64,000 nucleotides of DNA from Sacculina carcini. Taxonomy: Eukaryota > Arthropoda > Thecostraca > Sacculinidae. This document shows positions 1,536 through 62,778 of this stretch, piece by piece. Every line of letters begins with the position of its first letter. Positions within the stretch are counted from its first letter, which is position 1. Location of the stretch: NCBI GenBank assembly GCA_916048095.2, contig OU696571.1, positions 10,457,449-10,521,448 of the forward strand, read 5' to 3'. A program made the translations under genes and the position numbers. The notes beneath the pieces were generated by a model. The model worked only from the letters and a program-made list of their open reading frames with translations. It was not told where the DNA came from and did no database searches.

Positions 1536-2290
1536 GCAAAAAAAAATTTAGGCGGAGGATTGGGTTACTGGTTTGATGACTTAGTTTAAAAGAAATTAGG
1601 GAGTGATCTGATATGGCAATATCAGGAGGATATGTGATGATGTCTGGAGTAACGAGCTTAGCAGATGTTTCGGTACAAATGAGGAGGTCAAGGGCATGAC
1701 CTGATATATGAGAACAGCCAGAGTTCATTATGGTAAGGTCCCAGGAATTTAGAAGGGACAGGAAATCAGTTGAGTGTGGGCGATGGGAAGGCTGATCAAT
1801 CCCAAAATTAAAGTCACCAAGTAATATGAAGTTGTCGGAAAAACGCTAAAATAGAATGTCAATAATACTGTCGAAATCAGAATTGAATTGAGCCGATGAG
1901 CCAGGGTTATTATGGCGATAAACAAGTAAAATTCCAAGAGGACGCGCAGCAGGCAAAGACAGAGAAAGTGCAATGTACTCGAAAGAAGGGGAGGTAAATG
2001 AGAGATCATTAAGTAAATTAAGGGCAAAAGAAGAGCGGAGAATGACACCCACAAACCCACCTTTATACTTAGTAGAGGAAGAAGAAGATCGAAAAACATG
2101 AAAGAACTTGAAAGAATGAGGCAATTGGGCAGAAAAAACTGAAACATCAGACTCAAGCAGCCATGTCTCAGTAAGCCTAAGGAGAGAAAGATTAAGGTGA
2201 GAAATAATATCACAAATATAGGACGTCTTATTACGGGCAGAACGGATATTGAGTAGGCCAACGGGGAAAAATTTAGGATCATTCTGAGTG
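1516..2290 (-). pseudogene. LINE ORF2 apurinic endonuclease domain (broken)
   Basis: Several short frames together give an APE-type endonuclease. They include a start resembling LLNIRSARNK, then LTETWL, then GDFNFG, and the terminal SDHSLISF motif near 1620. These are the family's catalytic landmarks (Asn/Glu for metal binding, GDFN, and the final SDH). The domain nicks target DNA to prime reverse transcription. At least two frameshifts separate these motifs, so no functional protein can be made. Confidence 0.75.
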
Positions 2291-2359
2291 CCAGACAGGT
2301 GAGGGGGACCAGGGAGGGTGAGAGCCGGTACAGGGGCAGTGGTAGAGCGCGGGAGTAGT

Positions 2360-3548
2360 CATTGGTCACCAGGGTTAGCAGGGGAGGGCGGAGAAGAGAC
2401 AGCAGTAGTATTGGGAGGGAGGGATGTGGTAGTGGGAGCAGAGAGAGGGGTGGAGGAGGGTGATGGAAGAGGGACCACAATTGTGCGTTCACGGAGGGAC
2501 TCACGAACTGCGATGAAAGAGGGGCAGCTGGGCGAAAAAGAGGAGTGGTTGGAGGGCGATTGCGACGGGCACAATTGATACACTGGGCGCTGGAGCGTTT
2601 GTGACAGACGGCGGACATGTGTGATCCCGCACAGTGCCCACATGCCACCTTGTTGTTGTAAGCGCAGCGCTCAGTCCGATGGCCGAGACCCGCGCAGCGA
2701 CCGCAGTGTACCACCTGAAAGCGGTCATACACCACGCAGCAGCGGAAACCGATAAAGAGTCGATTTCCGACAGCCTTGATGCCGCGACGGACTTCCGGCG
2801 AAACAGCCAGAACAGCATTCGTTTGTCCAGACTTGGACCGGTGGATGAACAGTAGCTTTAGTTGAGAGGCAGGAGCAGATGACACGATGAGGTTCTTCAG
2901 TCGCAGGGTAGACATGAGCCTTTCGGGGGTCAGAAGATCTGGGACGTTGGTGTGGGTAATTTTAGGCATGATCGAAGGTTGACGCTTGTGCATCGTCAGC
3001 TCAATATTCTCGATTTTGCTACCAAGTTTTTTGGCAGCATCCTGGGCAGCTTCTTCGGAGCAGCACTTTAGGACGACTCCCCCCTCCGACGTCTGACGTA
3101 CCTGCGCCACTGGCACCGTGTCCAGCACCTTTTCGATGATGTCCGTCTTGATAGGAGCCGCCGTCTTGTTATTCAAAACAACTGCGAACGAGTGGTTCGC
3201 AGCTCCCTTGACAGTCGGACGGGTGGAAGTGGCGGACTCAGATTGCGAAGACCTGATCTCCTCTACAAGCTCCGTCTTCAGCTGGGCAAGCTGAGTCTCT
3301 AGTCTGCTGCAGAGCTCAGATAGAGTGTTCTGGCTGGAGTCACGTTTAGCAGATGAAAAACCAGAGACGCACTCAGGGCACACCCAGAAAAGTGTATGCT
3401 TTCTCAGCGCTGTGTGCGCCGCTGAAGACAGGGCGGCACAGGAGGGGTGGAATGTGCGATCACAACCCGGGCAGAGTATGCGGGCGCCGGTTGTCACGCT
3501 CTCACCGCAAGTGCACGAACGCACCTTATCAGTTGATCTTGCTGGCAT
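2360..3548 (-). pseudogene. LINE ORF1: PHD finger, RRM-like region, zinc knuckles
   Basis: Translation starts at MPARSTDK near 3548. The first 60 residues form a PHD finger: paired cysteines CTCGES, then CPGCDRTFHPSC, closing with FWVCPEC. Residues of roughly 110-290 resemble the RRM-like segment of LINE ORF1 proteins. Two CCHC-like knuckles follow (HCGRCAGLGHRTERC and CGHCAGSHMSAVC). The frame then slips near the Pro/Ser-rich C-terminus, and the long open stretch beyond it is a wrong-frame reading of the endonuclease. In CR1-type elements ORF1 binds the element RNA and takes part in target-primed integration. Assignment of PHD and knuckles is firm; the RRM call is by resemblance only. Confidence 0.8.
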
Positions 3549-3590
3549 AATGACCAGTCACAAAGTCACAGTCACAAAGTCACACTAAAC

Positions 3591-30734: not shown

Positions 30735-30752
30735 TGGTGACCCCGACGTGAT
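30735..30752 (+). promoter_or_regulatory. Primer-binding site for tRNA-Trp (inner element)
   Basis: TGGTGACCCCGACGTGAT is complementary to the 3' end of animal tRNA-Trp including CCA. It lies three bases after a residual LTR end (GCCACATAC). Only about six bases of the 5' LTR remain before it, so the inner element has no complete 5' LTR. Confidence 0.9.
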
Positions 30753-30893
30753 CATTCTTCGACGCCTACGAGGTTCACATCTTCCGTGAGTTTTGATTTC
30801 TTCATTTCATCTTTTTCCTTTAAATTTCTTTCTTCATTTAATTTACCATTTCATTCTTTTCTGTTCAATTTGTTCACAAATTTAACTTTCATT

Positions 30894-31736
30894 ATGGCGA
30901 GCGATAACGCCGCCCCATTTCCCACTAAAAACGGGGCCGAAAGTACACCAGTGGTCGACGTTTCCGCTTCTCCTGTGCATGGCGTGACTATTAAGCCACC
31001 GCCTTTCATGGAGAATTGCATGGAAGGCTGGTTCGCAATCATGGAGGCACAATTTCGCCTCCAGCGAGTGTCGGTAGAGTCCACAAAATTCTACCACGTC
31101 ATCGCAGCTCTGCCCCCGAACGTGGTGTGCAAAGTCAGTCCTGCTACAATGGAGCAAGAGTCATACTCACAGCTCAAATCCGAGGTTCTTCAGACTCTCG
31201 AGAAATCCAAAACGGAGCTATTTGAGGAGCTCATTTCTAGCACTGTCATGACTGGTCGACCATCTGTTTATCTTAGTGAGCTGATGGCGCGTGCACGCAA
31301 AGTAAAAGTGACGGAAGATTTAGTTCGTCACAAGTTTACTCAGGCGTTACCACCAGCTCTCGGCCCGGTCTTGGCTGCACAACAGCAGACGCCGCTGGAA
31401 CAGCTCGGCAAGCTGGCAGACGAGTTGATGCCGCTGGTGCCGTCGCAGTGCTTGGCCGCGCCCGGTATGTTTACCCAAGCAGCGACCACTCATCGCAGCG
31501 GACGACAGCAGGAGAGAGTATCAAACGCCAGATACGGCATAGGACTGCAGCCTTTTCATTCCGACCAACGCCCGAAAGTGTGTCGTGGTCATATATTTTT
31601 TGGCGCCGCTGCACGCACGTGCAAGCCATGGTGTCAGTGGCCACGGAAACCAGCAAATCTAGCGATGCAACCATCATCCAGGGGCTCCTCGCCGGTGCCT
31701 GCCGATCGTTCCCGTCCGTCGACCCCGGAAAACTAG
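30894..31736 (+). CDS. gag: CsRn1-type gypsy Gag (inner element)
   Basis: The start MASDNAAPF at 30894 is preferred over the upstream in-frame ATG at 30786, which would add a hydrophobic UTR-like stretch. The protein is about 280 residues. Near its C-terminus is a CHCC knuckle, CRGHIFFGAAARTCKPWC (C-x2-H-x9-C-x3-C), the diagnostic Gag motif of the CsRn1 clade in place of CCHC. Gag forms the particle and binds element RNA. It overlaps pol by about 290 bases in the -1 frame; a T6 run at 31596-31601 is the obvious slip-prone spot. It is intact and differs from the reverse-strand copy at one residue (AAP/AAS). Confidence 0.9.
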   Translation: MASDNAAPFPTKNGAESTPVVDVSASPVHGVTIKPPPFMENCMEGWFAIMEAQFRLQRVSVESTKFYHVIAALPPNVVCKVSPATMEQESYSQLKSEVLQTLEKSKTELFEELISSTVMTGRPSVYLSELMARARKVKVTEDLVRHKFTQALPPALGPVLAAQQQTPLEQLGKLADELMPLVPSQCLAAPGMFTQAATTHRSGRQQERVSNARYGIGLQPFHSDQRPKVCRGHIFFGAAARTCKPWCQWPRKPANLAMQPSSRGSSPVPADRSRPSTPEN

Positions 31737-34700
31737 ATCGGCAGGCCATGGTAGCTGCATCAGGTGGCCTGCCGCTCCTCACAGTAGCAGCTCGTGTCGG
31801 CACCAAATGGTTGTCCTTCATTGTTGACACCGGAGCAGGCGTCTCCGTCCTTCCGCGGACCGAGGTAAGCACACTGTCGCTCCTGCCAACATCAGTGCGG
31901 TTATCCGCAGCCAATGGCCAGCCCATGACAGTACACGGTGAGGTTCGTGTCGACATTGTGCTGCAGAAGCTGCGTCGGAAGTTCACATGGACATTTGTAG
32001 TATCCGACGCAGTGTCTCCATTGCTGGGCCACGATTTTTTGCGCCACTTTAAACTCATAGTCGATTGTCATCACAACTGCATTCGTGACACCACAACCTC
32101 GCTGCAAGCGCCGGCTAAGGTAAGTGGTGCACAACCAGTTGGCCTTGTCGTCAACGACTTGAGTAATTTTCCTCATACTGTGCGCACGTTGATGTCTGAT
32201 CATCCATCGCTACTTGCACCACGGTCAAACAATATGGTTTCTATGCCTGTTCAGCACAGCATTGACACGGGCAGTGCCGCACCGGTCTTTGCTCGGCCTC
32301 GCCGACTGACGCCCGATAAAGATAATGCCGCTCGATCTGCTTTCGAAGATCTCTTAGCGTCCGGTGTCGTCCGTCGCTCCAACTCGCCGTGGGCTTCTCC
32401 GCTTCATATGGTTGCTAAGAAAGCACCCGGCGAGTGGCGCATCACGGGAGATTATCGGGCGCTCAATGTCAAGACTGTGCATGACAGATTTCCGATCCCA
32501 CATATCCAGGATCTGTCAGCACATTTAGACGGCATGACAGTATTTTCCAAATTGGACCTACTACAGGCATATCATCAGGTTCCGATGAGTGAAGCCGACA
32601 TACCGAAAACCGCTGTAGTGACTCCTTTCGGTTTATTTGAATATTTGTTTATGCCGTTGGGTCTCAAAAACGCCGGAGCCACCTTTCAGCGCATGATGAG
32701 TACGATACTTGCCCACCTGTCGTGCACATTCGTTTATCTAGACGATGTTCTCGTGTTCTCGGTTGACGAGCAGCAGCACACGCGCGACCTGGCAGCAGTA
32801 TTTGACGTTTTTGAAAAGCATGGTCTCCGATTATCTCTGGACAAGTGTTGTTTTTACAGGTCAGAGATTGATTTCCTTGGTCACAAGATCACTGCCGACG
32901 GTGTTTGCCCGCCGGATTCCAAAGTGAGTGTCATTAATGATTTTCCTTTACCTTCTGATTCTGCTTCACTGCGTAGATTTCTGGGCATGGTAGGTTTTTA
33001 CCGCCGTATGATCCCTGGTTTCGCGACCCTTGTTCACCCTTTGTCGGAACGCAGTAGAATAGAGCCAAATTCAAAAAGCCTTTCGCTCACTGCAGACGAG
33101 ATAGCTGCGTTTGAAGGCGTCAAGCGAGCCCTGAGTGACGCATGCACGCTACCTCATCCCAAAGCTAACTGTGATCAGCTTCAGCTAGTCACCGACTGCT
33201 CATCGACGGCTGCTGGCGCTGCACTTCACCAGATGGTGGACGGGGTGCCTAGGCCCATCTCGTTTTTTTCAAAGAAGCTTTCTGCCGCGCAGCGGAAGTA
33301 CTCTGTCTACGACCGCGAATTGTTGGCCGCTTATTACGCCGTGGGACATTTCCGTCATTTCCTGGAGGGGCGAGCGGTAACGCTGCTAACCGATCACAAA
33401 CCGCTCGTCTCGGCTTTTCGCAGTCCTCGCATGGCTAAGTCAGACAGACAGCAGCGGCATTGGTCATATATTACCGAATATGTGTCCGATGTTCAGCATG
33501 TTCGCGGCGCCGAGAACGTGGTCGCAGATTGCCTTTCGAGAGATGTGAACGTCATCCAATTGGAAGCATTTGATCTGCCCGCCATTGCGCGTGCTCAGCT
33601 GGATGATCGCGATGTTATGATTCACGCCGACAGCCTGAAGAAGTTCAACTTGTCCGATGATACCGTGCTATTGTGTGATACAACAACGCCTCATCCTAGG
33701 CCGTTTCTACCGCAGAGATGCCGGTTTCACGTGTTCCAGCAGCTGCACAATATTGCACATCCTGGGGTTCGCGCCAGCACACGCGTGATAAAATCCAGGT
33801 ATGTATGGCCTCACATGGACAAAGATATTAAAGATTGGGTACGTAGTTGTACTGCCTGCCAACAATCAAAGATCACGCGCCACACAAAGTCGCCACTTTC
33901 GCAGTTTGATCTTCCTAGCGCACGATTCGAGGTGGTTCACTTAGATCTCGTCGGGCCTCTGCCGCCGGCGGTTACAGCTGGTCACTCATTTTCCACGCCG
34001 TTCAGATACATACTGACATGCGTCGATCGTGCAAGCCGCTGGCCCGAGGCGATGCCACTCACTGACATCACTGCAGCATCTGTTGCCAACGCCTTCTTCA
34101 CTGGCTGGATTTCGCGTTTCGGTGTCCCACTCCATGTGGTAACGGATCGCGGAACCCAGTTTGAATCTGAGCTGTTCGAGGAATTATCCAAACTGGTAGG
34201 TTTTCATCGTGTTCGGACGACCGCCTATCACCCCCAATCTAACGGCATGGTAGAGCGTCTTCATCGCGTAATTAAAACAGCTATCATAGCCCGTAAAGAA
34301 TGCTGGCTTTCGGCTCTTCCGGTCGTCATGTTGGGGATCCGATTGCTGCCCGCGGAGTCCGGTTTTTCGCCATTCACGGCCGTTACGGGCGGATATCTGC
34401 TGTGTCCTCGGGTGCCAACAGGTGAAAACGTGTCCATTAAAGCACAGCACGACTTCGTGGGCGAACTCAACAAGAGAATGCAGGAGATCGACTTTCACAG
34501 CTTGTCAGCCGGCACATCACACAGCACTCCGACATCCTACGTGCCAGCGCAGCTGATGACATGTGAGCATGTGTGGTTGCGTGTCGATCGTGTCCGCCGT
34601 CCACTCGAGGCACCTTATCGGGGCCCTTTTCGCGTCGTATCCAGAACGCCGAAGGTTTTCACCATCGCTCTGCCAACTGGCGGGTCAGAGTCCGTCTCGA

Positions 34701-34921
34701 TAGATCGTCTGAAGCCAGCCATCGTCACTGCTGCGTCACCGGTCAAGGCCCCTTCGTCGCAGCCTCCTCCGGTTCCACGTGCACGTGTTACGCCCGCCAG
34801 CACCACTACGACACGGCCTGTTCCTGTACCTGCTCCTCGTGCATCACTACCAAAGACAATCACTACCAGATGCGGTCGTACGGTTAGATTCAAGACAGCA
34901 CCGGATTTTCACTATTTTTGA
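31448..34921 (+). CDS. pol: CsRn1-type gypsy Pol polyprotein (inner element)
   Basis: 1157 codons are open from 31448; in life it is probably reached by -1 frameshift from gag. Domains in order: aspartic protease (FIVDTGAGVSV, Asp127); reverse transcriptase with FSKLDLLQAYHQVP and the catalytic YLDD at about 430-433; RNase H (LVTDCSST near 583, LTDHKPLVSAF near 649); integrase zinc finger (H-H-C-C, about 765-805). The integrase core has HLDLVGPLP (Asp833), TDRGTQFES (Asp900) and NGMVERLHR (Glu936), a DD35E spacing. The C-terminus has the GPFRVVS barrel and a Pro/Thr-rich tail. All catalytic residues are present, so it may be functional. Confidence 0.93.
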   Translation: MLGRARYVYPSSDHSSQRTTAGESIKRQIRHRTAAFSFRPTPESVSWSYIFWRRCTHVQAMVSVATETSKSSDATIIQGLLAGACRSFPSVDPGKLDRQAMVAASGGLPLLTVAARVGTKWLSFIVDTGAGVSVLPRTEVSTLSLLPTSVRLSAANGQPMTVHGEVRVDIVLQKLRRKFTWTFVVSDAVSPLLGHDFLRHFKLIVDCHHNCIRDTTTSLQAPAKVSGAQPVGLVVNDLSNFPHTVRTLMSDHPSLLAPRSNNMVSMPVQHSIDTGSAAPVFARPRRLTPDKDNAARSAFEDLLASGVVRRSNSPWASPLHMVAKKAPGEWRITGDYRALNVKTVHDRFPIPHIQDLSAHLDGMTVFSKLDLLQAYHQVPMSEADIPKTAVVTPFGLFEYLFMPLGLKNAGATFQRMMSTILAHLSCTFVYLDDVLVFSVDEQQHTRDLAAVFDVFEKHGLRLSLDKCCFYRSEIDFLGHKITADGVCPPDSKVSVINDFPLPSDSASLRRFLGMVGFYRRMIPGFATLVHPLSERSRIEPNSKSLSLTADEIAAFEGVKRALSDACTLPHPKANCDQLQLVTDCSSTAAGAALHQMVDGVPRPISFFSKKLSAAQRKYSVYDRELLAAYYAVGHFRHFLEGRAVTLLTDHKPLVSAFRSPRMAKSDRQQRHWSYITEYVSDVQHVRGAENVVADCLSRDVNVIQLEAFDLPAIARAQLDDRDVMIHADSLKKFNLSDDTVLLCDTTTPHPRPFLPQRCRFHVFQQLHNIAHPGVRASTRVIKSRYVWPHMDKDIKDWVRSCTACQQSKITRHTKSPLSQFDLPSARFEVVHLDLVGPLPPAVTAGHSFSTPFRYILTCVDRASRWPEAMPLTDITAASVANAFFTGWISRFGVPLHVVTDRGTQFESELFEELSKLVGFHRVRTTAYHPQSNGMVERLHRVIKTAIIARKECWLSALPVVMLGIRLLPAESGFSPFTAVTGGYLLCPRVPTGENVSIKAQHDFVGELNKRMQEIDFHSLSAGTSHSTPTSYVPAQLMTCEHVWLRVDRVRRPLEAPYRGPFRVVSRTPKVFTIALPTGGSESVSIDRLKPAIVTAASPVKAPSSQPPPVPRARVTPASTTTTRPVPVPAPRASLPKTITTRCGRTVRFKTAPDFHYF

Positions 34922-35249: not shown

Positions 35250-35706
35250 TGTGGAGGCGTGCAAGTTGCGTGGTTGGGCGGTTGTATGTCTGTGTGTATC
35301 CAAGTGTATCCTTTGTGTGTGCGTTTCGCTCGTTTGTATGCGTGTCTGGCGTGTATGCATGTCAAGTGTATGTCTGTGTGTATCCAAGTGTATCCTTTGT
35401 GTGTGCGTTTCGCTCGTTTGTATGCGTGTCTGGCGTGTATGCATGTCAAGTGTATGTCTGTGTGTATCCTTCTGTATTGGTGAACGCGGTTAGGCGTTTG
35501 TGTAGGAATGTGACCGTGTGAATGGTCATGTGACCGTGTGAAAGGTCACATGACCGAGCTTATATAACACGGCACACTGCCGGTCAAAGGGCCATTCGCT
35601 CGGATTCGCTCGCATTCGCTGGTATTATCTTGTATTGTGATCTCGCCTGCAATAGACTTTTCTCGCCGTGTTTTCCTCGTTTTCAATGTGGCTTCACGAC
35701 GCCACA
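35250..35706 (+). mobile_element. gypsy LTR 2 (457 bp; 3' LTR of inner element)
   Basis: Runs TGTGGAGGCG...CGCCACA in forward orientation, opposite to LTR 1 and LTR 3. It has the same internal 84-bp tandem duplication. It is followed by about 28 bases of filler before reverse-strand pol sequence begins. Confidence 0.9.
35516..35567 (+). promoter_or_regulatory. LTR promoter: TATA box and GTGAC/GGTCA repeats
   Basis: A TATA box (TTATATAA, 35560-35567) is preceded by two roughly 21-bp repeats of the form TGTGACCGTGTGAAxGGTCA. Where they meet they create CATGTG and CACATG E-box cores and paired GGTCA half-sites (GGTCACATGACC). This is the expected place for the LTR promoter. The same block lies inverted in LTR 1 and LTR 3. 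Confidence 0.55.
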
Positions 35707-38700
35707 TACTATGTGTGGTTGCGTGTGCATGTGTGAATCCGGTGTTGTCTTGAATCTAACCGTACGACCGCATCTGGTAGTGATTGTCTTTGGTAGCGAT
35801 GCACGAGGAGCAGGTACAGGAACAGGCCGTGTCGTAGTGGTGCTGGCGGGCGTAACACGTGCACGTGGAACCGGACGAGGCTGCGACGAAGGGGCCTTGA
35901 CCGGTGACGCAGCAGTGACGATGGCTGGCTTCAGACGATCTATCGAGACGGACTCTGACCCGCCAGTTGGCAGAGCGATGGTAAAAACCTTCGGCGTTCT
36001 GGATACGACGCGAAAAGGGCCCCGATAAGGTGCCTCGAGTGGACGGCGGACACGATCGACACGCAACCACACATGCTCACATGTCATCAGCTGCGCTGGC
36101 ACGTAGGATGTCGGAGTGCTGTGTGACGTGCCGGCTGACAAGCTGTGAAAGTCGATCTCCTGCATTCTCTTGTTGAGTTCGCCCACGAAGTCGTGCTGTG
36201 CTTTAATGGACACGTTTTCACCTGTTGGCACCCGAGGACACAGCAGATATCCGCCCGTAACAGCCGTGAATGGCGAAAAACCGGACTCCGCGGGCAGCAA
36301 TCGGATCCCCAACATGACGACCGGAAGAGCCGAAAGCCAGCATTCTTTACGGGCTATGATAGCTGTTTTAATTACGCGATGAAGACGCTCTACCATGCCG
36401 TTAGATTGGGGGTGATAGGCGGTCGTCCGAACACGATGAAAACCTACCAGTTTGGATAATTCCTCGAACAGTTCAGATTCAAACTGGGTTCCGCGATCCG
36501 TTACCACATGGAGTGGGACACCGAAACGCGAAATCCAGCCAGTGAAGAAGGCGTTGGCAACAGATGCTGCAGTGATGTCAGTGAGTGGCATCGCCTCGGG
36601 CCAGCGGCTTGCACGATCGACGCATGTCAGTATGTATCTGAACGGCGTGGAAAATGAGTGACCAGCTGTAACCGCCGGCGGCAGAGGACCGACGAGATCT
36701 AAGTGAACCACCTCGAATCGCGCGCTAGGAAGATCAAACTGCGACAGTGGCGACTTTGTGTGGCGCGTGATCTTTGATTGTTGGCAGGCAGTACAACTAC
36801 GTACCCAATCTTTAATATCTTTGTCCATGTGAGGCCATACATACCTGGATTTTATCACGCGTGTGCTGGCGCGAACCCCAGGATGTGCAATATTGTGCAG
36901 CTGCTGGAACACGTGAAACCGGCATCTCTGCGGTAGAAACGGCCAAGGATGAGGCGTTGTTGTATCACACAGTAGCACGGTATCATCGGACAAGTTGAAC
37001 TTCTTCAGGCTGTCGGCGTGAATCATAACATCGCGATCATCCAGCTGAGCACGCGCAATGGCGGGCAGATCAAATGCTTCCAATTGGATGACGTTCACAT
37101 CTCTCGAAAGGCAATCTGCGACCACGTTCTCGGCGCCGCGAACATGCTGAACATCGGACACATATTCGGTAATATATGACCAATGCCGCTGCTGTCTGTC
37201 TGACTTAGCCATGCGAGGACTGCGAAAAGCCGAGACGAGCGGTTTGTGATCGGTTAGCAGCGTTACCGCTCGCCCCTCCAGGAAATGACGGAAATGTCCC
37301 ACGGCGTAATAAGCGGCCAACAATTCGCGGTCGTAGACAGAGTACTTCCGCTGCGCGGCAGAAAGCTTCTTTGAAAAAAACGAGATGGGCCTAGGCACCC
37401 CGTCCACCATCTGGTGAAGTGCAGCGCCAGCAGCCGTCGATGAGCAGTCGGTGACTAGCTGAAGCTGATCACAGTTAGCTTTGGGATGAGGTAGCGTGCA
37501 TGCGTCACTCAGGGCTCGCTTGACGCCTTCAAACGCAGCTATCTCGTCTGCAGTGAGCGAAAGGCTTTTTGAATTTGGCTCTATTCTACTGCGTTCCGAC
37601 AAAGGGTGAACAAGGGTCGCGAAACCAGGGATCATACGGCGGTAAAAACCTACCATGCCCAGAAATCTACGCAGTGAAGCAGAATCAGAAGGTAAAGGAA
37701 AATCATTAATGACACTCACTTTGGAATCCGGCGGGCAAACACCGTCGGCAGTGATCTTGTGACCAAGGAAATCAATCTCTGACCTGTAAAAACAACACTT
37801 GTCCAGAGATAATCGGAGACCATGCTTTTCAAAAACGTCAAATACTGCTGCCAGGTCGCGCGTGTGCTGCTGCTCGTCAACCGAGAACACGAGAACATCG
37901 TCTAGATAAACGAATGTGCACGACAGGTGGGCAAGTATCGTACTCATCATGCGCTGAAAGGTGGCTCCGGCGTTTTTGAGACCCAACGGCATAAACAAAT
38001 ATTCAAATAAACCGAAAGGAGTCACTACAGCGGTTTTCGGTATGTCGGCTTCACTCATCGGAACCTGATGATATGCCTGTAGTAGGTCCAATTTGGAAAA
38101 TACTGTCATGCCGTCTAAATGTGCTGACAGATCCTGGATATGTGGGATCGGAAATCTGTCATGCACAGTCTTGACATTGAGCGCCCGATAATCTCCCGTG
38201 ATGCGCCACTCGCCGGGTGCTTTCTTAGCAACCATATGAAGCGGAGAAGCCCACGGCGAGTTGGAGCGACGGACGACACCGGACGCTAAGAGATCTTCGA
38301 AAGCAGATCGAGCGGCATTATCTTTATCGGGCGTCAGTCGGCGGGGCCGAGCAAAGACCGGTGCGGCACTGCCCGTGTCAATGCTGTGCTGAACAGGCAT
38401 AGAAACCATATTGTTTGACCGTGGTGCAAGTAGCGATGGATGATCAGACATCAACGTGCGCACAGTATGAGGAAAATTACTCAAGTCGTTGACGACAAGG
38501 CCAACTGGTTGTGCACCACTTACCTTAGCCGGCGCTCGCAGCGAGGTTGTGGTGTCACGAATGCAGTTGTGATGACAATCGACTATGAGTTTAAAGTGGC
38601 GCAAAAAATCGTGGCCCAGCAATGGAGACACTGCGTCGGATACTACAAATGTCCATGTGAACTTCCGACGCAGCTTCTGCAGCACAATGTCGACACGAAC

Positions 38701-39195
38701 CTCACCGTGTACTGTCATGGGCTGGCCATTGGCTGCGGATAACCGCACTGATGTTGGCAGGAGCGACAGTGTGCTTACCTCGGTCCGCGGAAGGACGGAG
38801 ACACCTGCTCCGGTGTCAACAATGAAGGACAACCATTTGGTGCCGACACGAGCTGCTACTGTGAGGAGCGGCAGGCCACCTGATGCAGCTACCATGGCCT
38901 GCCGATCTAGTTTTCCGGGGTCGACGGACGGGAACGATCGGCAGGCACCGGCGATGAGCCCCTGGATGATGGTTGCATCGCTAGATTTGCTGGTTTCCGT
39001 GGCCACTGACACCATGGCTTGCACGTGCGTGCAGCGGCGCCAAAAAATATATGACCACGACACACTTTCGGGCGTTGGTCGGAATGAAAAGGCTGCAGTC
39101 CTATGCCGTATCTGGCGTTTGATACTCTCTCCTGCTGTCGTCCGCTGCGATGAGTGGTCGCTGCTTGGGTAAACATACCGGGCGCGGCCAGGCAC
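35683..39195 (-). CDS. pol: CsRn1-type gypsy Pol (outer element, altered C-terminus)
   Basis: 1170 codons, with the same domains and catalytic motifs as the inner copy (DTGA, YLDD, RNase H Asp residues, integrase DDE). Only a few substitutions are visible (for example IIQGLI for IIQGLL, SLRAP for SLQAP, HPWPF for HPRPF). The natural ending DFHYF is lost: after KTTPDS the frame reads through junction filler into the inverted LTR 2 and stops there, adding about 17 foreign residues. The catalytic core is intact. Its normal 3'UTR is displaced to 30357-29857. Confidence 0.9.
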   Translation of the reverse strand: MPGRARYVYPSSDHSSQRTTAGESIKRQIRHRTAAFSFRPTPESVSWSYIFWRRCTHVQAMVSVATETSKSSDATIIQGLIAGACRSFPSVDPGKLDRQAMVAASGGLPLLTVAARVGTKWLSFIVDTGAGVSVLPRTEVSTLSLLPTSVRLSAANGQPMTVHGEVRVDIVLQKLRRKFTWTFVVSDAVSPLLGHDFLRHFKLIVDCHHNCIRDTTTSLRAPAKVSGAQPVGLVVNDLSNFPHTVRTLMSDHPSLLAPRSNNMVSMPVQHSIDTGSAAPVFARPRRLTPDKDNAARSAFEDLLASGVVRRSNSPWASPLHMVAKKAPGEWRITGDYRALNVKTVHDRFPIPHIQDLSAHLDGMTVFSKLDLLQAYHQVPMSEADIPKTAVVTPFGLFEYLFMPLGLKNAGATFQRMMSTILAHLSCTFVYLDDVLVFSVDEQQHTRDLAAVFDVFEKHGLRLSLDKCCFYRSEIDFLGHKITADGVCPPDSKVSVINDFPLPSDSASLRRFLGMVGFYRRMIPGFATLVHPLSERSRIEPNSKSLSLTADEIAAFEGVKRALSDACTLPHPKANCDQLQLVTDCSSTAAGAALHQMVDGVPRPISFFSKKLSAAQRKYSVYDRELLAAYYAVGHFRHFLEGRAVTLLTDHKPLVSAFRSPRMAKSDRQQRHWSYITEYVSDVQHVRGAENVVADCLSRDVNVIQLEAFDLPAIARAQLDDRDVMIHADSLKKFNLSDDTVLLCDTTTPHPWPFLPQRCRFHVFQQLHNIAHPGVRASTRVIKSRYVWPHMDKDIKDWVRSCTACQQSKITRHTKSPLSQFDLPSARFEVVHLDLVGPLPPAVTAGHSFSTPFRYILTCVDRASRWPEAMPLTDITAASVANAFFTGWISRFGVPLHVVTDRGTQFESELFEELSKLVGFHRVRTTAYHPQSNGMVERLHRVIKTAIIARKECWLSALPVVMLGIRLLPAESGFSPFTAVTGGYLLCPRVPTGENVSIKAQHDFVGELNKRMQEIDFHSLSAGTSHSTPTSYVPAQLMTCEHVWLRVDRVRRPLEAPYRGPFRVVSRTPKVFTIALPTGGSESVSIDRLKPAIVTAASPVKAPSSQPRPVPRARVTPASTTTTRPVPVPAPRASLPKTITTRCGRTVRFKTTPDSHMHTQPHIVCGVVKPH

Positions 39196-39749
39196 TGCGA
39201 CGGCACCAGCGGCATCAACTCGTCTGCCAGCTTGCCGAGCTGTTCCAGCGGCGTCTGCTGTTGTGCAGCCAACACCGGGCCGAGAGCTGGTGGTAACGCC
39301 TGAGTAAACTTGTGACGAACTAAATCTTCCGTCACTTTTACTTTGCGTGCACGCGCCATCAGCTCACTAAGATAAACAGATGGTCGACCAGTCATGACAG
39401 TGCTAGAAATGAGCTCCTCAAATAGCTCCGTTTTGGATTTCTCGAGAGTCTGAAGAACCTCGGATTTGAGCTGTGAGTATGACTCTTGCTCCATTGTAGC
39501 AGGACTGACTTTGCACACCACGTTCGGGGGCAGAGCTGCGATGACGTGGTAGAATTTTGTGGACTCTACCGACACTCGCTGGAGGCGAAATTGTGCCTCC
39601 ATGATTGCGAACCAGCCTTCCATGCAATTCTCCATGAAAGGCGGTGGCTTAATAGTCACGCCATGCACAGGAGAAGCGGAAACGTCGACCACTGGTGTAC
39701 TTTCGGCCCCGTTTTTAGTTGGAAATGAGGCGGCGTTATCGCTCGCCAT
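38907..39749 (-). CDS. gag: CsRn1-type gypsy Gag (outer element)
   Basis: Starts at MASDNAASF (39749) and is open for about 280 codons, with the same C-x2-H-x9-C-x3-C knuckle near the end as the inner copy. It overlaps pol in the -1 frame. Nearly identical to the inner copy, showing that both are recent. Confidence 0.9.
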   Translation of the reverse strand: MASDNAASFPTKNGAESTPVVDVSASPVHGVTIKPPPFMENCMEGWFAIMEAQFRLQRVSVESTKFYHVIAALPPNVVCKVSPATMEQESYSQLKSEVLQTLEKSKTELFEELISSTVMTGRPSVYLSELMARARKVKVTEDLVRHKFTQALPPALGPVLAAQQQTPLEQLGKLADELMPLVPSQCLAAPGMFTQAATTHRSGRQQERVSNARYGIGLQPFHSDQRPKVCRGHIFFGAAARTCKPWCQWPRKPANLAMQPSSRGSSPVPADRSRPSTPEN

Positions 39750-39890
39750 AATGAAAGTTAAATTTGTGAACAAATTGAACAGAAAAGAATGAAATGGTAA
39801 ATTAAATGAAGAAAGAAATTTAAAGGAAAAAGATGAAATGAAGAAATCAAAACTCACGGAAGATGTGAACCTCGTAGGCGTCGAAGAATG

Positions 39891-39908
39891 ATCACGTCGG
39901 GGTCACCA
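39891..39908 (-). promoter_or_regulatory. Primer-binding site for tRNA-Trp (outer element)
   Basis: ATCACGTCGGGGTCACCA on the given strand is the reverse complement of the PBS, three bases inside LTR 3. It is the start site of minus-strand cDNA synthesis. Confidence 0.9.
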
Positions 39909-52627: not shown

Positions 52628-54530
52628 TTATACGTCATAAAAACGTGTTTGTTTGCGTTGTCGCGTGGATTTGCGCTGAACCGAAACTGTAGTAGAATTG
52701 GTCTGGCTGTTGGCGTTCTGAGGGGTCGGAGATGACACAACCGGTAGTTCATCAGGGTTTGATGGTGTCTCGAGTGATGGATTTTCGACGAATGCTGGGT
52801 TGAGTCTGTCGAGTGACACTTCTTCGTGACGACCATTGCGGCTGATGACATGTTTTGTCTTTTCTGGGGATAACTTTGTACGGGCTGTCGTAATTGAAGG
52901 AGAGTGGGGTTTTTTAGCCGTCCTTGCGGAGCAAAACATGCTCGGCAGTCTTCAGGTCCGAGTGAACGAATATTTTCGCGCTAGAGGATCGGGTGGAAGA
53001 TGGTGACAGACCTTGAACATGTCGTTTGAGTTCGTCGAGAAATTAAAAGTTACTTGTTGACTGCACAGGTCGGACGAAATCACCGGTAAGACGCAGCGTT
53101 TCGCCGAAGGCGTACTCGGCAGCAGAGGCGTTGAGGTCTTGCTTGAAGGCCGTGCGAATGCCAAGCAATACAAAAGAAAGACATGTCGTCCAGTCTGCAG
53201 ATATGTGTGCGTCGCGCAATGCAGCTTTCATTTGGCGGTGAAATCTCTCAACCATGCCGTTGGATTGAGGGTGGTAACTTGTTAGTTTGTGCTGAAGTCC
53301 GAGTTGCATCCAGAGATGGTGCCATAGCTTTTGCAGTGAACTGTGCACCTCTGTCCGTGACGATGACAGAAGGTGCACCGTATCGAGCGATCCAATGGAG
53401 CGAAACATTTTGGAGAATGACTTCTGTCGTAGCTCCTGAGATAGGAATGGCTTCAGGCCATCGCGTGAATCGGTCGATCATTGTAAGGACGTAAGTGTAA
53501 TTATTGCACGACGGTAGCGGACCGACAAGATCCATATGAATGATGTCGAAACGTTTGTTTGGGATGGCAATTGACACAACAGGTGTCATTGTATGTGGAT
53601 GGATTTAGGATTTTTGGCATTTGATGCAGTGTTTGCACCATTTGCGAATGTCAGATCGGATGTCTGGCCAGACATATCGTGATGTGAGTATCTTTTCCAT
53701 CGAATGACATCCGGGATGTGAGAGTTGATGACTTTGGTTGAAAAGTTGTTGGCGAAGGATTTCGGGCACAAATGGACGAGGAGTATCGAGAGAACAATCG
53801 CAAATAATTTTCATGTCGGTACCAGGAATAGGAATGGATTGGAGTTGTAGTGAATTTTGCTCGTTCAAAATGCTGCTGTCCTGGTTTTCTGAGATGATTT
53901 CAGGTGTGATAGGCGATCGGGCAGTGTTGATTCGTGACAAAGCATCGTCCTGTGCATTTGAAACACATGCGATGTGATCGATCTTGTCTGTGAATTCGAG
54001 TATGTATGTCATGTATCGTTGGTCACGGGAGATGTGGCTGGGGTTACACGATTGCAGAGCGCTCACTAGAGGTTTTTGGTCCGTGTAGATCTTGAATTGA
54101 ACACCCTCTAACCATGGCTTAAAATGACGAATCGCAGCATAGACAGCGAGGAGCTCACGGGAGAATGAACTGTAGTGTTTTTTAATCATTGAGCTTCTTG
54201 GAGAAAAAACCGAGAGGTTGTATGCTTCCGTTCAGTTATTGTTGTAGTACAGCGCCAATTGCACTATCACTGGCATCACACGCTAAGCTCAATTGTGCTT
54301 CTAATTGTGGGTTTGCCAGAGTTGTTGTTTCCACTAACGCAGATTTGACGTCGTTGAACGCTTGCTCGCTGGATGTAGTCCACTCGGTGGAACGTTTTGA
54401 ATATTTCTTGCCGTTCTTGATCATTTCGTGTAGAGGTGCAATCAGTGTGGCGGCATTTTTGATGAAACGATGGTAAAACTTTCCCATCCCGAGGAATCGC
54501 TAAAGTTCTTGTTGATTTTGAGTTCTTGTC
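52628..54530 (-). pseudogene. pol: gypsy pol: RNase H and integrase (frameshifted)
   Basis: Begins at the RT connection (RFLGMGKFYHRF). Then RNase H (LACDASDSAIGAVLQQ; YSSFSRELLAVYAAIRHF; YTDQKPLVSAL) and the integrase zinc finger (HQLSHPGCHSMEKILTSRYVW with CKHCIKCQKS). The core follows with IHMDLVGPLPSC, VTDRGAQFTAKAM and SNGMVERFHRQM, then the C-terminal VSLDRLNPAFV ending at 52628. At least four frame changes separate these parts. Motifs are CsRn1-like. Not functional. Confidence 0.8.
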
Positions 54531-54990
54531 GTTGCTGTCCTGAGTGTTGTCAACGTCCAACAGTCGTCGCAGCTGGCCACACTCGGCCGTCACACACTGA
54601 CTGGCATCACTGGCGTTGCTTGGTGTTGCCAGTTGCTCCTGCTTGGCAGCCTGAGCGAGACGGTCGAGCACAGACTTGGCAGCGCAGTGTTTGGCCTTTT
54701 TCTTGCTGAGACCCTGGCCGGACGAGACGAAATTGTCGACGGTGACGCGGTACACAAACGTCGGCTCGTACACCACACCCTCCACCTGACCGACAAACAC
54801 AAACACACACACACACACACACTACACGTGCCAGCCATAACAAGCCAACTACACACACACACACAACTGTTCCAGAGTGCAGTGGTATGTTTGGTGGCCC
54901 AAGGCGTTCCTGGGAACACCTCGTATGAGTTCGTTGAGGACCACCAGGTCAGAGCCAATCACCCCGAATGGTGCCCTATAACAACGGTTA
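54530..54990 (-). pseudogene. Captured dsRNA-binding domain (TARBP2/PRKRA/Loqs-like)
   Basis: The exon-like segment 54790-54530 follows an acceptor-like TTTGTGTTTGTCGGTCAG. It encodes VEGVVYEPTFVYRVTVDNF, then SSGQGLSKKKAKHCAAKSVL and DRL: beta strands and the SKKxAKxxAA helix of a dsRBD. Upstream, 54986-54865 encodes SDLVVLNELIRGVP and GHQTYHCTLEQ, which fits the first helix and strand of the same fold. A (TG)n-containing gap between them would be a short intron. Third positions are GC-rich. Downstream, 50 polar residues lead directly into gypsy sequence (RFLGMGKFYHRF). In animals such domains work in Dicer partners, Staufen or ADAR; which one is the source is not clear. Confidence 0.7.
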
Positions 54991-57640: not shown

Positions 57641-57804
57641 AGTAAAAATTGGACATCGTAAATGTAAATACAAACGTATATGTATGTTCAACTGTGTTTT
57701 TATTTTATTATTTTTTTACGTACATACATGTATTTACAATCACGTATTCATTTTATAATAATGTACAATTAAGCACGCACGCATGCGCGCGGGGTATTTG
57801 CGGG

Positions 57805-58587
57805 TCAGTTCAGCGACCTGGTGATGGTTGCCGCGTTGCCGCGCACGACCGCCAGACTGACCCGCTGTCTGAGCCAGGCCGTCTCGCGCGGCTCTCCCGA
57901 GCGCTCTGTTATTCGACGACCGATGTTCTTCATTAGGTCGTCGAATGTGGACCCCAGCACACCGGTCGTTTCGATGGCCAGCGGCGCGAAGTCATACCGC
58001 TGGTTCAGGTCCATGTAGCGTCGTCTTTTCGTCTCTTCGGCCGCCCGAGTCGCTGCCCCGGGAGCGAGTGCACCCTCCAACAAGTGTGCTCTGCAGAAGG
58101 TGCTGGTGCACGTCACGTCCCAGACCAGTGATTTGCCGCGCCGGAAGGGAAATATGGTGATCCCGTCCGGCCGGCGGCCGTCGCCTCTGTTCAGACCGCG
58201 AGGTTCCAGCACCGCCGTGACTCCTGCCGACGCCAAACTGCGATGGACGATGTCGTTCAGGGCAGTGTAACGCGGCAGTCGGTCGACGTTGTGGCAGCAC
58301 GACAGACTATGGTGGCCCCATCGTTCGGTCATTGAGCCGCAACGACACCTGTACGGCTGCTGGATGGCGGCTCCCAGGCGCAGCGCCACGCCGACGCGAA
58401 CGGCTTCGTCGGGCAGCAGCAGGCCGAGGCTGGAGACCGGAAGTGCGGACAACCAGGCGCCGCTATGAGATGCGGCCGCTGCCAGAAGACGAGTTCGGTC
58501 CACCTGGTTGGCTCTGGAGCAGACTGTGCAGGCGGTGCTCTGACGCATTCGTGTCGAGGTGGCGCTGAGTGGGGGACTCTGGCACAT
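57805..58587 (-). pseudogene. LINE C-terminal CCHC knuckle and restriction-like endonuclease
   Basis: 261 codons ending at 57805. Residues 81-97 form a CxC...H...C knuckle (CRCGSMTERWGHHSLSC). The endonuclease core follows as RRPDGITIFPFRRGKSLVWD, with Pro140-Asp141 and Asp157 giving the PD...D signature of restriction-like LINE endonucleases. The end (GRRITERSGEPRETAWLRQR) is the conserved C-terminal helix block of this family. It would nick the insertion target. Frame differs from the RT by a shift between 58911 and 58587. Confidence 0.8.
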
Positions 58588-58910
58588 TTTGCTAGCTGAA
58601 AGCCGGACACATTCTGCTCACAAAGTCCTCCACGGGGCGCGCCGGGAGACCAGGCCTGTGACCGCGTTGGCAGTCAATTATGTGACTGGCCAGGTCCCCA
58701 TCGGCCTCCATTGAGGCGATATGGGCAGGCAGCGCCACGTCGATCAGACGCCTAGCCCCGTTGCTTCCCAGACGGACGGGCAGCGGCGCTTGCTCCCATT
58801 TGTCGTCATCCAGGTCGACGTTTGCAGCAGCTGCCGATGGCCGATCGGAGGCTCCCGTCGCTGGTGACGAGCTGAGAGGTCGCCCTGTATACTGGGGCTG
58901 CTCTCATCAG

Positions 58911-59987
58911 TTACATGACTCGCGGCACTGACGCGTATCTGCTCAGGAAGAACAACGCCGGGTGCGAGCCGATGTTGGTGGTGCGCCCGATGAGCAGCTC
59001 CAGTTGGTGATGGATTTTGTCCAGGGCTGCCGGTATGCCTCTGGACTCGAGGGGTGTGCCCAGAAGTGCTGCCATTGTCGCTGGTAAGGAGGTGGCCCCT
59101 GGCAGATGCCTCTGGATCAGCGAGTCGGCCATGTAGTCATCGGAGGGTCCGAGCCCGATGGCCTCGCACTTGGTAGTATTTAGTGTGAGGCCAATGTCGT
59201 GCAGGGCTGGGACGAGACGCCTGATGTCCGATTGCACGACGTCTGATGGTCCTCCTATTGTGGCGTCGTCGAGGTACCAGACATTCAGCGGTGACTCAAG
59301 CTGCTGAGCCACCGGATCGACCGTGAGGGCGAACAGTGCGGGACCGAGGGGATCTCCCTGCTGCACGCCGCGGCACGACCAGATACATCTGGTAGCGTGA
59401 AACAGCGATGTTGGCTGGCCGTATGCCTGTGTGACAAGCGGCAGTGCGACGGGGAAGCGGAGACTCACCTCATCCAACGGGGTGCGGCGGTTGACGCAAT
59501 TGAAGGCGTTAGCCACGTCTAGTTTCACCAGAACGTGACCTCGCTTCCCCTTGTTTGCTGAGATAGAGTGGCGCGTTGCGTGAACGGCCGCCTCACATCC
59601 CATTCTTGTACTTACGCCCATCTGCACTGGACGTAGCTCGTGCGCCAGCGCCGACGCCAGTTTGCCGGCTACCAGCTTGCTGGCGATTCGCCGGAAGATG
59701 CTGCCCAATGCTATTGGGCGCAGACCCCCCGATTTTTTCCTAAGGGCAACGAGGCGTGCACTGAAATTTGCGCCCTTATCGAAGTCGGGAATCGTGAGCG
59801 CCTTCAGCAGCTGGTTTCCGGCCTCTGCTGTCTGTGGGGGGAGAAGCTGGCTCACGTGCATGGGCCGGAGACCGTCCAGTGCGCCTGACGAGCTCTTCGG
59901 CAACGCGTGAACGGCGGCTTTGACGTCACTCGCATCGAACGACGGCCCTTGTGGCAACTGGTCCTGTGGCCACTGTGATTCGTCCAC
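58911..59987 (-). pseudogene. R2-type LINE reverse transcriptase
   Basis: 358 open codons. LKALTIPDFDKGANFSARLV and RRIASKLVAGKLASAL form the fingers. Motif A is LVKLDVANAFNCVNR, motif B CRGVQQGDPLGPALFALTV, and the catalytic box VWYLDDATIGG. The linker from the PHD finger (60410-60027) and this domain share one frame, separated by a stop at 60027. The active-site aspartates are intact. The enzyme would copy the element RNA at the endonuclease nick. Confidence 0.85.
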
Positions 59988-60399
59988 TGTTGACGGTGGG
60001 TGTTTGGCCTCCAGCGCCTGTGTGACCTAATCGCTGACGCCGGCGACAGCGTCGTCCGATGTGAGGATGCGCAGAATCCCACGAATATCACCGTCAGTGC
60101 ACTTGGCCCTCACGCTGCGAGACACAACGGCGTCCTCGTTCTGCGGCCGCGGGCGCGTGTGATGACGTGCACCGGGCTGTGGTGTTGTGATCTCGGTGCT
60201 CAGAGGGCCTGTCACAGCGTAGGACAGAAGCCGCCACCAAGCAGTGGGTGTGCGCTGCTGCAGAGCCGCCGTAATACGCTCAGTGAGGTCGGCTGCAACA
60301 CGGTGACGCAGGGCGCGGGGCACATGCTGCTGCACGTGGCGCTGCTGCCGCAGAGAAGCCATTGCAGTTGCCATATCTTCCGGTGTGTCGTTGATGTCA

Positions 60400-60845
60400 A
60401 TTCCCTCCATTGAGTGAATGTCGCCGCACTCCGCCTGCAGTCGTAGACAGCCGCGACAGTGCCACGCCGGAATATGTCAGCTTGCGAAAGAGTGACTCGC
60501 ACATGTGAGGTGATAGTTTTGGTCGCAAGCTGCGCACGGTATAGTGCGTTTGTTGGCACTGGGCGTGTTGCAGTGGGCGCACAGCTGCTGTGAGGATTTG
60601 GAGTCGGGTGTTTGCTGGTCGACTCCAACGGCGAGGCAGTGGGCCAGGCGGCATCCAGCGCAGCTTCTGTCCGTCGGTGTTAGTGAACAATTACCGCCGC
60701 GGTTGCAAGACATGTTGCGGTCCTTATTTCGCGAGAAAAATATCTTGCACGCAGGGCAGATTGGTGTGTTGGGGCCGGCTCTCGCAGCAGCATTGCACAC
60801 ACCGCAGACCGCATTTGGTGTTTGCATATCTACTGTTATATACAC
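60400..60845 (-). pseudogene. LINE N-terminus: nuclear-receptor C4 finger + PHD
   Basis: From MYITVDMQTP (60845): finger 1 has C14, C17, C30, C33 with P-box CPACKIFFSR; finger 2 has C47, C53, C62, C65 followed by CRLAHCLAVGV. Canonical nuclear receptor DNA-binding domains use C-x2-C-x13-C-x2-C and C-x5-C-x9-C-x2-C; here the long loops are 12 and 8, one shorter each. Residues 89-115 then give a PHD finger (CAHC, CAAC, H112, C115), completed after an in-frame TGA by WHCRGC. The fingers would bind DNA, probably for target choice or element ends. Confidence 0.8.
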
Positions 60846-61130
60846 ACGCGGTATTTACGCAAGATTTCTTTGAACAAAATATGCAAGGGTGGTGGATGAC
60901 TAGAAATGGTGACTAGGGCACATAACAAAGACACACGATGTAAATGAACGAACACAAACACGCAAAGGTATATACACGCACACTCGCCTAAGCGTCCAAC
61001 TGTCGCCGCAATGATGAATAATGACTAGGGGCACACTATATGCACTGTCGCACTGGGATATATACACGCACACGCCTATAACACGCACACCGCTCAACCG
61101 CCGCCGCGATGATCGATTATGACAGGTGTC
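60846..61130. repeat. 5' flank of the LINE with ~88-bp direct repeat
   Basis: Two related segments begin GGTATATACACGCACAC (60967) and GGATATATACACGCACAC (61056). Each continues through a CCGCCGC-like and ATGATxxATxATGAC string. This may be the duplicated promoter/5'UTR of the LINE. Confidence 0.6.
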
Positions 61131-62778
61131 GCTGGCGAGGATGTAAACACGTGACCGGACACTGACAACATCTCACGGGCAAGTTTAAATGTACACACTG
61201 GGAAATTGCGGGAGCCAGGGCAAAACACAACCTTCTCCGACGAAGGATAAAACGCGACGCGATATGTTCAACTGCATATCCCAATACAACACAACCACAC
61301 AACCAGCCATAACACAACCATACAACAAAGGTGCACAACTGTGACAAGTGACAAGTAAGTTTCATTTAGATCACAGTATTGACCGCCACGGCAGGACTTC
61401 TATGATCATACACGATAAAACAGGCTGGTATAGTTCAGGCACATCATAGTGCAGATAATATTAAATAGCACAAGAGAATGTCTACAATACAATATTAACA
61501 TTCACATGTATAATAATGCCTCATATACGAAATGGTAATGCACGTACTTGTGCAAAGTCTACGCACGAGCGAAAACACACACTAACACAAACGCGCACAG
61601 GTGTTTGCGATGTACACGTAAACAAACGTTCACGTGCACACGCCCACACAACATTAGAAATCAAGAAAATATTACAATAAATTACAATAAAATTCATACG
61701 TATGTACAAACAATGCAAATACACATGTATATGCATTCATACATACACATACACATTACACAACTTACTCGTATGATGGAATTTGAATTTGTGTAAGAGG
61801 TCCGACTGATTTTACTGTAGAGAAAGCTTAACAATTTGTAGAGCAGTCCAGGACACATTGACTACAAAATAGTAAGCCGCCCACCTCAGTTTGTAAAGAT
61901 GGCTTCTCTACAGCAACGTGGACTTTTTGTAAGGTTCTTCATTCACGTACCAGTCGTAAATGAAGTTGATGAAGTTAAAGTTAATGCTGAAGTTTAAGTT
62001 GATAAGTTGATGTACGAAACGTAACGTTGAGTAGCAAATACAGTTGACGAACAATGAATGCACTAGCGCTCACTCGCAAACCACGAACATGAATTAGAAA
62101 AGCCAGGCGCAGCAATCGCCACTCACCAGTAGCGTGCTGACGTCACATGTCACGGTTTAGTGCGTACATACACTATATTAATTAGCCAATATTATAATGG
62201 CGCGAGCGCAATAATACCCGACGATACAATGCAAAATAAAACCAATATATTACAAGCACGGACGAGCAAAATCGCGGACCCAAAAACAAGCGTGGAGAAG
62301 ACCGTATCGCAACCCCGACGAGAGCTTAACCTCGCGCCAGTTTTGCATCGCGTACTGTTTGGGGGATAATACGCGGGATACTGAATTTACACTACAATTT
62401 ACAAAACAATCGATGACCATGACAATATGAAATGAATTGCACGAATACGATATGATCCCGTATTGGAAATTAAAGGCATTTCAAAAGATCTTGTGCAGCG
62501 TCGAACGTGTGCGGCTGCTACAACGGGATTTCAGGTCGTGTGTACTTGGCTTCACAAAATTTTCACGCCGGCAATGAGTTTTGGACTGATTTTATTTTAA
62601 CGAGCCTCAATGTAACGTCTTAATTTTCAGCAAAGTTTCAAATGAATAATTTCACATTAATTTTATTTCACGTACACAATATACAATTATAGTATATTTG
62701 ATGATAAAATACAAAGAATTAAGCAGACGTGATAACAGTAGCAATTAACGAGGCAGGAATAAAACTAGCAAGCAACAA
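61131..62778. other. No gene recognised
   Basis: Contains CA-rich DNA at 61550-61650 and 61700-61760, and GAAGTTAAAGTTAATGCTG-type direct repeats at 61957-62010. 62500-62778 may include the 3'UTR or LTR of the gypsy fragment that follows, but no boundary is visible. Confidence 0.5.

Follow-up and report, generated by a model that had tools for sequence, protein, structure and literature searches.

The window, by which we mean the whole 64-kb stretch of DNA analyzed here, contains a degenerate non-LTR retrotransposon copy, flanked by a target-site duplication of 12 bp, in which a zinc finger of the nuclear-receptor type is followed by a PHD finger and a reverse transcriptase (RT) of R2 type. 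The anatomy of this element, as read from the window together with copies found elsewhere in the genome, can be regarded as practically certain. With regards to the wider explanation, we consider it fairly probable that the window holds a dead copy of an R2-like lineage whose ancestor gained the DNA-binding domain (DBD) of a nuclear receptor, with the finger docking the protein on DNA for insertion at CA-rich sites.

The window copy and its encoded protein

The features of the window copy were the following, in order along the window.

57683..57694, no strand: target-site duplication, copy next to the element's 3' end, reading TATGTTCAACTG on the plus strand
57695..61262, minus strand: the whole retrotransposon copy, 3568 bp, degenerate, with its limits set by the two copies of the target-site duplication
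57697..57717, minus strand: short A-rich 3' tail
57805..57807, minus strand: C-terminal stop codon of the ORF remnant
58108..58173, minus strand: putative restriction-like endonuclease motif RPD-x15-D, by motif reading alone, with no Pfam or PDB match
58297..58347, minus strand: CCHC motif C-x-C-x8-H-x4-C, by motif reading alone
59157..59741, minus strand: reverse transcriptase domain, RVT_1 at 67.1 bits, E 2.3e-18
59259-59276, minus strand: YLDDAT within the RT
60027..60029, minus strand: TAG in-frame stop in the linker
60030..60446, minus strand: linker between PHD finger and RT, including the stretch WW.LLSYA that is conserved between families
60447..60581, minus strand: PHD finger, split by a stop codon, PF00628 at 22.1 bits on its first part
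60477..60479, minus strand: TGA in-frame stop within the PHD finger
60618..60809, minus strand: zf-C4 nuclear-receptor-type double zinc finger, Pfam PF00105, residues 16-79
61263..61274, no strand: target-site duplication, copy next to the element's 5' end, 12 bp

Finger, PHD finger, linker and RT of this copy have one frame in common, and the C-terminal part is found in two other frames. Because the TGA and TAG codons break the common frame and the C-terminal part has left it, the window copy is dead. An earlier, sequence-only reading of this DNA had described finger, PHD finger, RT and restriction-like endonuclease as one frame block; this held for the first three domains, with two stops in their frame, but not for the C-terminal part, and the block from finger to endonuclease exists as a single ORF only in other copies, with the endonuclease recognized by motif alone. 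An intact copy (L053) is 89.6% identical in DNA to the window copy over 3067 bases. An Rfam scan of the 64-kb window gave no match.

Elsewhere in the window, two Ty3/gypsy-type gag/pol ORF pairs were seen at 30741-34918 (plus) and 35686-39902 (minus), inverted tail-to-tail and about 770 bp apart, with ORFs of 331 aa in each pair and of 1213 and 1226 aa, respectively; the two pol ORFs score almost the same in Pfam. Degenerate pieces of an LTR-type pol (RNase H, H2C2 and integrase core domains) lie at 53046-54231 (minus), and a 181-aa frame matching the double-stranded-RNA-binding motif (dsrm) at 30.9 bits, perhaps a fragment of a host gene, at 54279-54821 (minus). A 601-aa frame at 1755-3557 (minus) has a PHD finger of 24.6 bits and lies upstream of an RVT_1 frame at 399-1547 (minus), the two frames being another PHD-bearing LINE, perhaps CR1-like.

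The zinc finger itself is encoded on the minus strand at 60621-60806, reading CGVCNAAARAGPNTPICPACKIFFSRNKDRNMSCNRGGNCSLTPTDRSCAGCRLAHCLAVGV, with cysteines arranged as C-x2-C-x12-C-x2-C and then C-x5-C-x8-C-x2-C-x4-C, which reproduces the spacing of eight cysteines given earlier and adds a ninth. Relative to the aligned receptors, each loop lacks one residue, as had also been claimed, and two residues are missing from the segment that joins the finger halves. When the Pfam profiles proposed for checking the domains were applied, zf-C4 (35 bits, E 2e-8, cut-off 21.1) and RVT_1 matched the window, and PHD passed in other copies; the 22.1 bits of the window PHD finger, scored on a stop-interrupted piece, fall below the cut-off of 24 because the stop codon cuts the domain, whereas six other copies scanned had 25.0-29.0 bits, with a full match at 28.8 bits in L041. 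All six element proteins or pieces scanned had both zf-C4 (28.4-62.7 bits) and PHD above the Pfam cut-off, as did RVT_1 in all five pieces long enough to include the RT. The same six lacked the ligand-binding domain PF00104 in the Pfam scan, and gave no Pfam match to C2H2 or Myb at E 0.1. Searched against the PDB, the ORF of L060 matched R2 RT structures (best E 2.6e-11), R2 thereby being the best PDB match of the element RT, as well as receptor DBDs (best E 6.4e-6). For the N-terminal piece from the window, AlphaFold run on the single sequence gave a mean pLDDT of 42.8, too poor for a structure search.

In the C-terminal part, CCHC and PD-(D/E)XK-like endonuclease motifs were conserved across copies, as judged from motif reading alone, where C-x-C-x8-H-x4-C and RPD-x15-D are patterns that we take, on a motif rule, to be the CCHC and the restriction-like endonuclease. 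The endonuclease region gave no Pfam match, and a search of the PDB with a nuclease profile was negative; from its motifs, the element probably encodes a restriction-like endonuclease.

Copies, families and the linkage of finger to RT

The 264-Mb assembly (43 contigs), which its receptor genes indicate to be that of an animal, gave at least 151 genomic matches in a search with the window finger, in which the best 150 of 228 candidates were scored, and 20 copies were fetched and read. One open frame of 1027-1062 aa, containing the finger and extending to the C-terminus, was found in L039, L040, L041, L044, L045, L048, L050 and L053; L049 and L051 run into N stretches. A second family (L059) has an ORF of 1030 aa, a third (L060) one of 1119 aa within the locus and 1140 aa in the finger search, and the fourth is represented by L061, a broken copy, so that at least four diverged families share finger, PHD finger and RT. 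The proposed fusion of finger and RT was thereby borne out, with both in one intact ORF in the eight window-family copies, in L059 and in L060. Compared with L041, identity was 52% for the finger and 68% for the RT in L059, and 34% and 58% in L060; between these three families the C4 finger (34-52%) diverges more than the RT (58-68%) or the nuclease. Truncations at the 5' end were seen in L041, L045 and L065, and L050 has an L044-type 5' end joined to an L039-type 3' UTR. A pattern search for relatives among viral contigs gave 36 matches, none of which was confirmed.

Linkage was assessed by comparing domain searches with 162 finger places, being 146 rows of the window-finger search and 16 of a second zf-C4 search, the host-like rows and a small number of short or duplicated ones having been left out. 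The RT of L041 gave at least 117 loci (118 rows, one of them a second piece, with scoring of the best 117 among 2780 first-look candidates), and a finger match was found upstream on the same strand in 88 of these 117, at a median offset of 939 bp. Among RT loci that include the RT start and have 1000 aa or more in one frame, 49 of 51 had the finger upstream, the two exceptions being L065 (on contig C3) and one locus on C26. A search with the PHD finger and linker of L059 gave 150 rows, of which 121 start at the PHD finger, and 116 of these had a finger match 60-500 bp upstream. L065, the one of the five exceptions that was read, has a 5' truncation that ends immediately past the finger, and it adjoins CA-rich repeats; the 29 RT loci having no upstream finger match are presumed to be truncations, with L065 as the one such copy read. 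The three domains thus travel together in at least four families (116/121 PHD-start loci, 88/117 RT loci), and the possibility, raised with the original proposal, that other copies of the RT family lack the finger did not agree with these counts.

The finger is under purifying selection, with dN/dS values of 0.17, 0.16 and 0.34 in three close pairs. In comparisons of L041 with L044 and L053, the finger had dS values of 0.34 and 0.52 (over only about 47 synonymous sites), with PHD finger, linker, RT and C-terminal part at 0.09-0.23, below the finger; between L044 and L053 the finger dS was 0.17, with no excess. This higher dS of the finger than of the rest in two of three pairs suggests exchange of the 5' part between subfamilies.

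Kinship of the finger with nuclear-receptor DBDs

Sequence comparison makes it almost certain that the C4 finger is homologous to nuclear-receptor DBDs. The window finger, searched with phmmer against the PDB, had the VDR DBD as its best match (E 9.7e-8) among 96 distinct sequences up to E 1, and the 60 of these that were listed are all nuclear receptors or reconstructed ancestors thereof. The finger of L061, CRVCGDTARIGLNYGVRSCPSCREFFRR...CHIDRATRADCPPCRLSKCHAEGM, is a nearly canonical receptor DBD, with 62.7 Pfam bits and an E of 4.7e-14 to the androgen receptor DBD. On a profile of six receptors (the host DBDs L062-L064, AR, MR and VDR), five element fingers scored 30.2-63.6 bits, against a shuffle maximum of 21.9, and none of 1000 cysteine-fixed shuffles reached the real score for any of the five, whereby chance or bare cysteine spacing could be discarded as the cause of the zf-C4 match. 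In the alignment, the element fingers retain most of the receptor residues in the two helices, and the P-box region of the window reads CPACKIFF, unlike the receptor P-box residues. A tree of DBDs placed the six element fingers in one group (support 0.946, from 12 short sequences and about 70 columns), within which L061 was outermost, followed in a ladder by L060, L059 and the window family; thin as these data are, the tree agrees with a single capture after which the receptor features eroded. We infer that a receptor DBD was, with good probability, captured a single time, by the common ancestor of the families.

The earlier proposal that the DBD had been captured or convergently built is thus favored in its first half and largely contradicted in its second. 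A convergent C4 module, merely resembling a receptor DBD, would be in line with the two shortened loops of the window family and with an identity to the six receptors of 18-25% when cysteines are excluded, yet the match of the sister family (L061) to the androgen receptor and the failure of cysteine-fixed shuffles to reach any real score argue for homology; convergence on the cysteine spacing is thereby largely refuted, and we hold it to be very improbable. Hardly credible at all is an exon of a host nuclear receptor lying merely beside the retrotransposon, a case that the sequence-only reading had itself named. The genome does have true receptors, with six full-length zf-C4 matches at 98.7-115.1 bits, three of which were read as DBDs (L062-L064), and with eight ligand-binding-domain matches, but none of these eight is on the contig of the window (C2), and the finger lies inside the RT's own ORF in other copies; the shared intact ORFs and the linkage in 116 of 121 loci refute an adjacent exon.

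Insertion sites and the possible role of the finger

There is little doubt that the element targets CA-rich repeats, although not strictly so, as seen from the window copy, the target-site duplication of which is in a non-repeat site outside microsatellites. The 3' junctions were studied in 24 sequences (the 20 copies, the window, L059, L060 and L061), and the ORF end was recognized in 19 of them, with L043, L049, L051, L058 and L061 uncounted. An A-tail was present in 18 of the 19 ends (not in L053), and in 14 of these 18 three-prime junctions the 40 nt past the tail contained a CA/TG run 12 nt or more in length, the background of this criterion being 0.48% at random window positions and 5.5% in the fetched loci. 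The element-sense strand of the 14 flanks read CA in 13 and TG in one (L045); L052 and L055 are an apparent segmental duplicate pair and their junctions not independent. The four other junctions were those of L047 and L056, with mixed CA-rich repeats, of L060, with (CACAAA)n, and of the window, and the 3' side of L061 was CA-rich by eye. L060 is located inside its (CACAAA)n hexanucleotide array on both sides, unlike the (CA)n of the window's family.

At the 5' side, where boundaries were placed by motif or, for L060, with the help of the initial 40 bases of its locus, a CA/TG run was found within 60 nt in 8 of 16 flanks (window background 1.06%), with mixed CA repeats in L047, L051, L056 and L060, and with no CA repeats within 60 nt in L046, L050, L054 and the window. 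Genome-wide, the 3' end of one subfamily together with its A-tail gave 38 forward-strand matches, 26 of which had (CA)6 within 30 nt, and reversed control patterns gave 0 matches; reverse-strand counts repeat sites and were excluded. At 838950-839402 of C3, a single CA-rich array holds similarly oriented copies from two families, the 3' end of one copy (839356-839402) sharing the array with the truncated second-family copy L065. The common target sought at the 3' junctions thus proved to be CA-rich microsatellites (14/18). Hormone-response-like half-sites, which had been put forward as candidates, are out as the target, with AGGTCA and TGACCT in none of 19 sequences within 400 bp past the ORF; in the same regions AGAACA was found in 3/19 and TGTTCT in 0/19.

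In the mechanism that we propose, the common ancestor would have gained a nuclear-receptor DBD, lacking the ligand-binding domain, at the place of the N-terminal C2H2 and Myb domains of R2. A single protein, with the order C4 finger, PHD finger, RT, CCHC and nuclease, would bind its own RNA, whereupon the C4 finger would dock it on DNA, the PHD finger may aid in the choice of chromatin, and the nuclease would nick one strand of a CA-rich microsatellite, mostly the TG strand since CA is read on the element-sense strand of 13 of the 14 CA/TG flanks; the RT would then prime on the nick, copying from the A-tail. For R2Bm, PMC10499050 describes how the target is located by the zinc finger and Myb domain of the N-terminus, with nicking and TPRT both lost when these are deleted. 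Because R2 finds its target through N-terminal domains, the C4 finger would by analogy be the likeliest DNA-docking module, and it may be the module of target recognition, a step that we take with some reserve. More tentative still is the full version, in which a receptor DBD was captured once, replaced the old targeting fingers and, together with the PHD finger, steers TPRT into CA-rich microsatellites.

A smaller but real chance must be given to a receptor-derived finger that binds the element RNA, or protects or localizes the RNP, with nuclease, RT or base pairing picking the CA repeats. Receptor DBDs are DNA-binding modules and the receptor residues of both helices are largely retained, which speaks against such a role, and R2 N-terminal fingers carry target recognition, as stated in parts of PMC10499050. 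In its favor, divergence is greater in the finger than in RT and nuclease, and CA-rich insertion nonetheless persists across families (judged from a single copy per family other than that of the window), so that the finger may not set specificity; moreover, the outermost N-terminal zinc finger of A-clade R2 also touches 3' UTR RNA in passages of PMC12503042, and (TG)n targeting is already known in Togen from portions of PMC4640811. A general DNA affinity of the finger, as an alternative to target choice, is also possible.

Comparison with known systems

To our knowledge, zf-C4 domains have been thought confined to metazoan nuclear receptors; here the receptor zf-C4 is a part of a mobile element, kept by selection across several diverged families. 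The literature searched (titles and abstract starts, with few subscription papers and no preprints) had no receptor-type finger in a retrotransposon, and within that literature such a finger inside an R2-like retrotransposon is new. RLE elements with microsatellite targets, including the (TG)n-specific Togen, are already known, as given in parts of PMC4640811. If the captured finger does steer insertion, the element would be a natural case of a site-specific retrotransposon re-aimed by a transcription-factor domain. It provides a natural experiment in how R2-like targets change through swapped N-terminal DNA-binding domains, with bearing on engineered site-specific insertion, and lets one follow the evolution of a receptor finger released from hormone-response elements.

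With nuclear receptors (the VDR, AR and ROR DBDs) the element shares the double C4 zinc module and residues beyond the cysteines, and differs from them in having no ligand-binding domain, in its P-box residues and, in the window family, in its shortened loops. PHD fingers occur in ORF1 of APE-type LINEs of the CR1/Jockey group; the PHD finger in a LINE protein is thus shared with these, whereas the present element is R2-like and has its PHD finger in the only ORF. With R2 the element shares a single ORF, N-terminal zinc fingers, an R2-type RT, C-terminal motifs of CCHC and putative endonuclease type and a target preference, together with the A-rich 3' tail and 5' truncations of the RLE R2 group. 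In contrast to R2, however, the element has zf-C4 and PHD fingers and no Pfam-detected C2H2 or Myb, and it resides mostly in CA-rich microsatellites instead of 28S rDNA. R2 elements do vary their N-terminal fingers, according to passages of PMC13188248.

The likeness to Togen and HERO rests on the target. As described in portions of PMC4640811, Togen of fish is (TG)n-specific and related to NeSL, and some HERO families are microsatellite-specific, so that a microsatellite target, and for Togen the same dinucleotide repeat, is shared; the same portions mention neither a receptor finger nor a PHD finger for them, both of which the present element has. NeSL and Utopia elements, which in that source carry an Ulp1-like protease or, in oomycete Utopia, RNase H, provide a precedent for host-type domains beside the RT in RLE elements, the extra domain of the present element being instead the DBD of a transcription factor.
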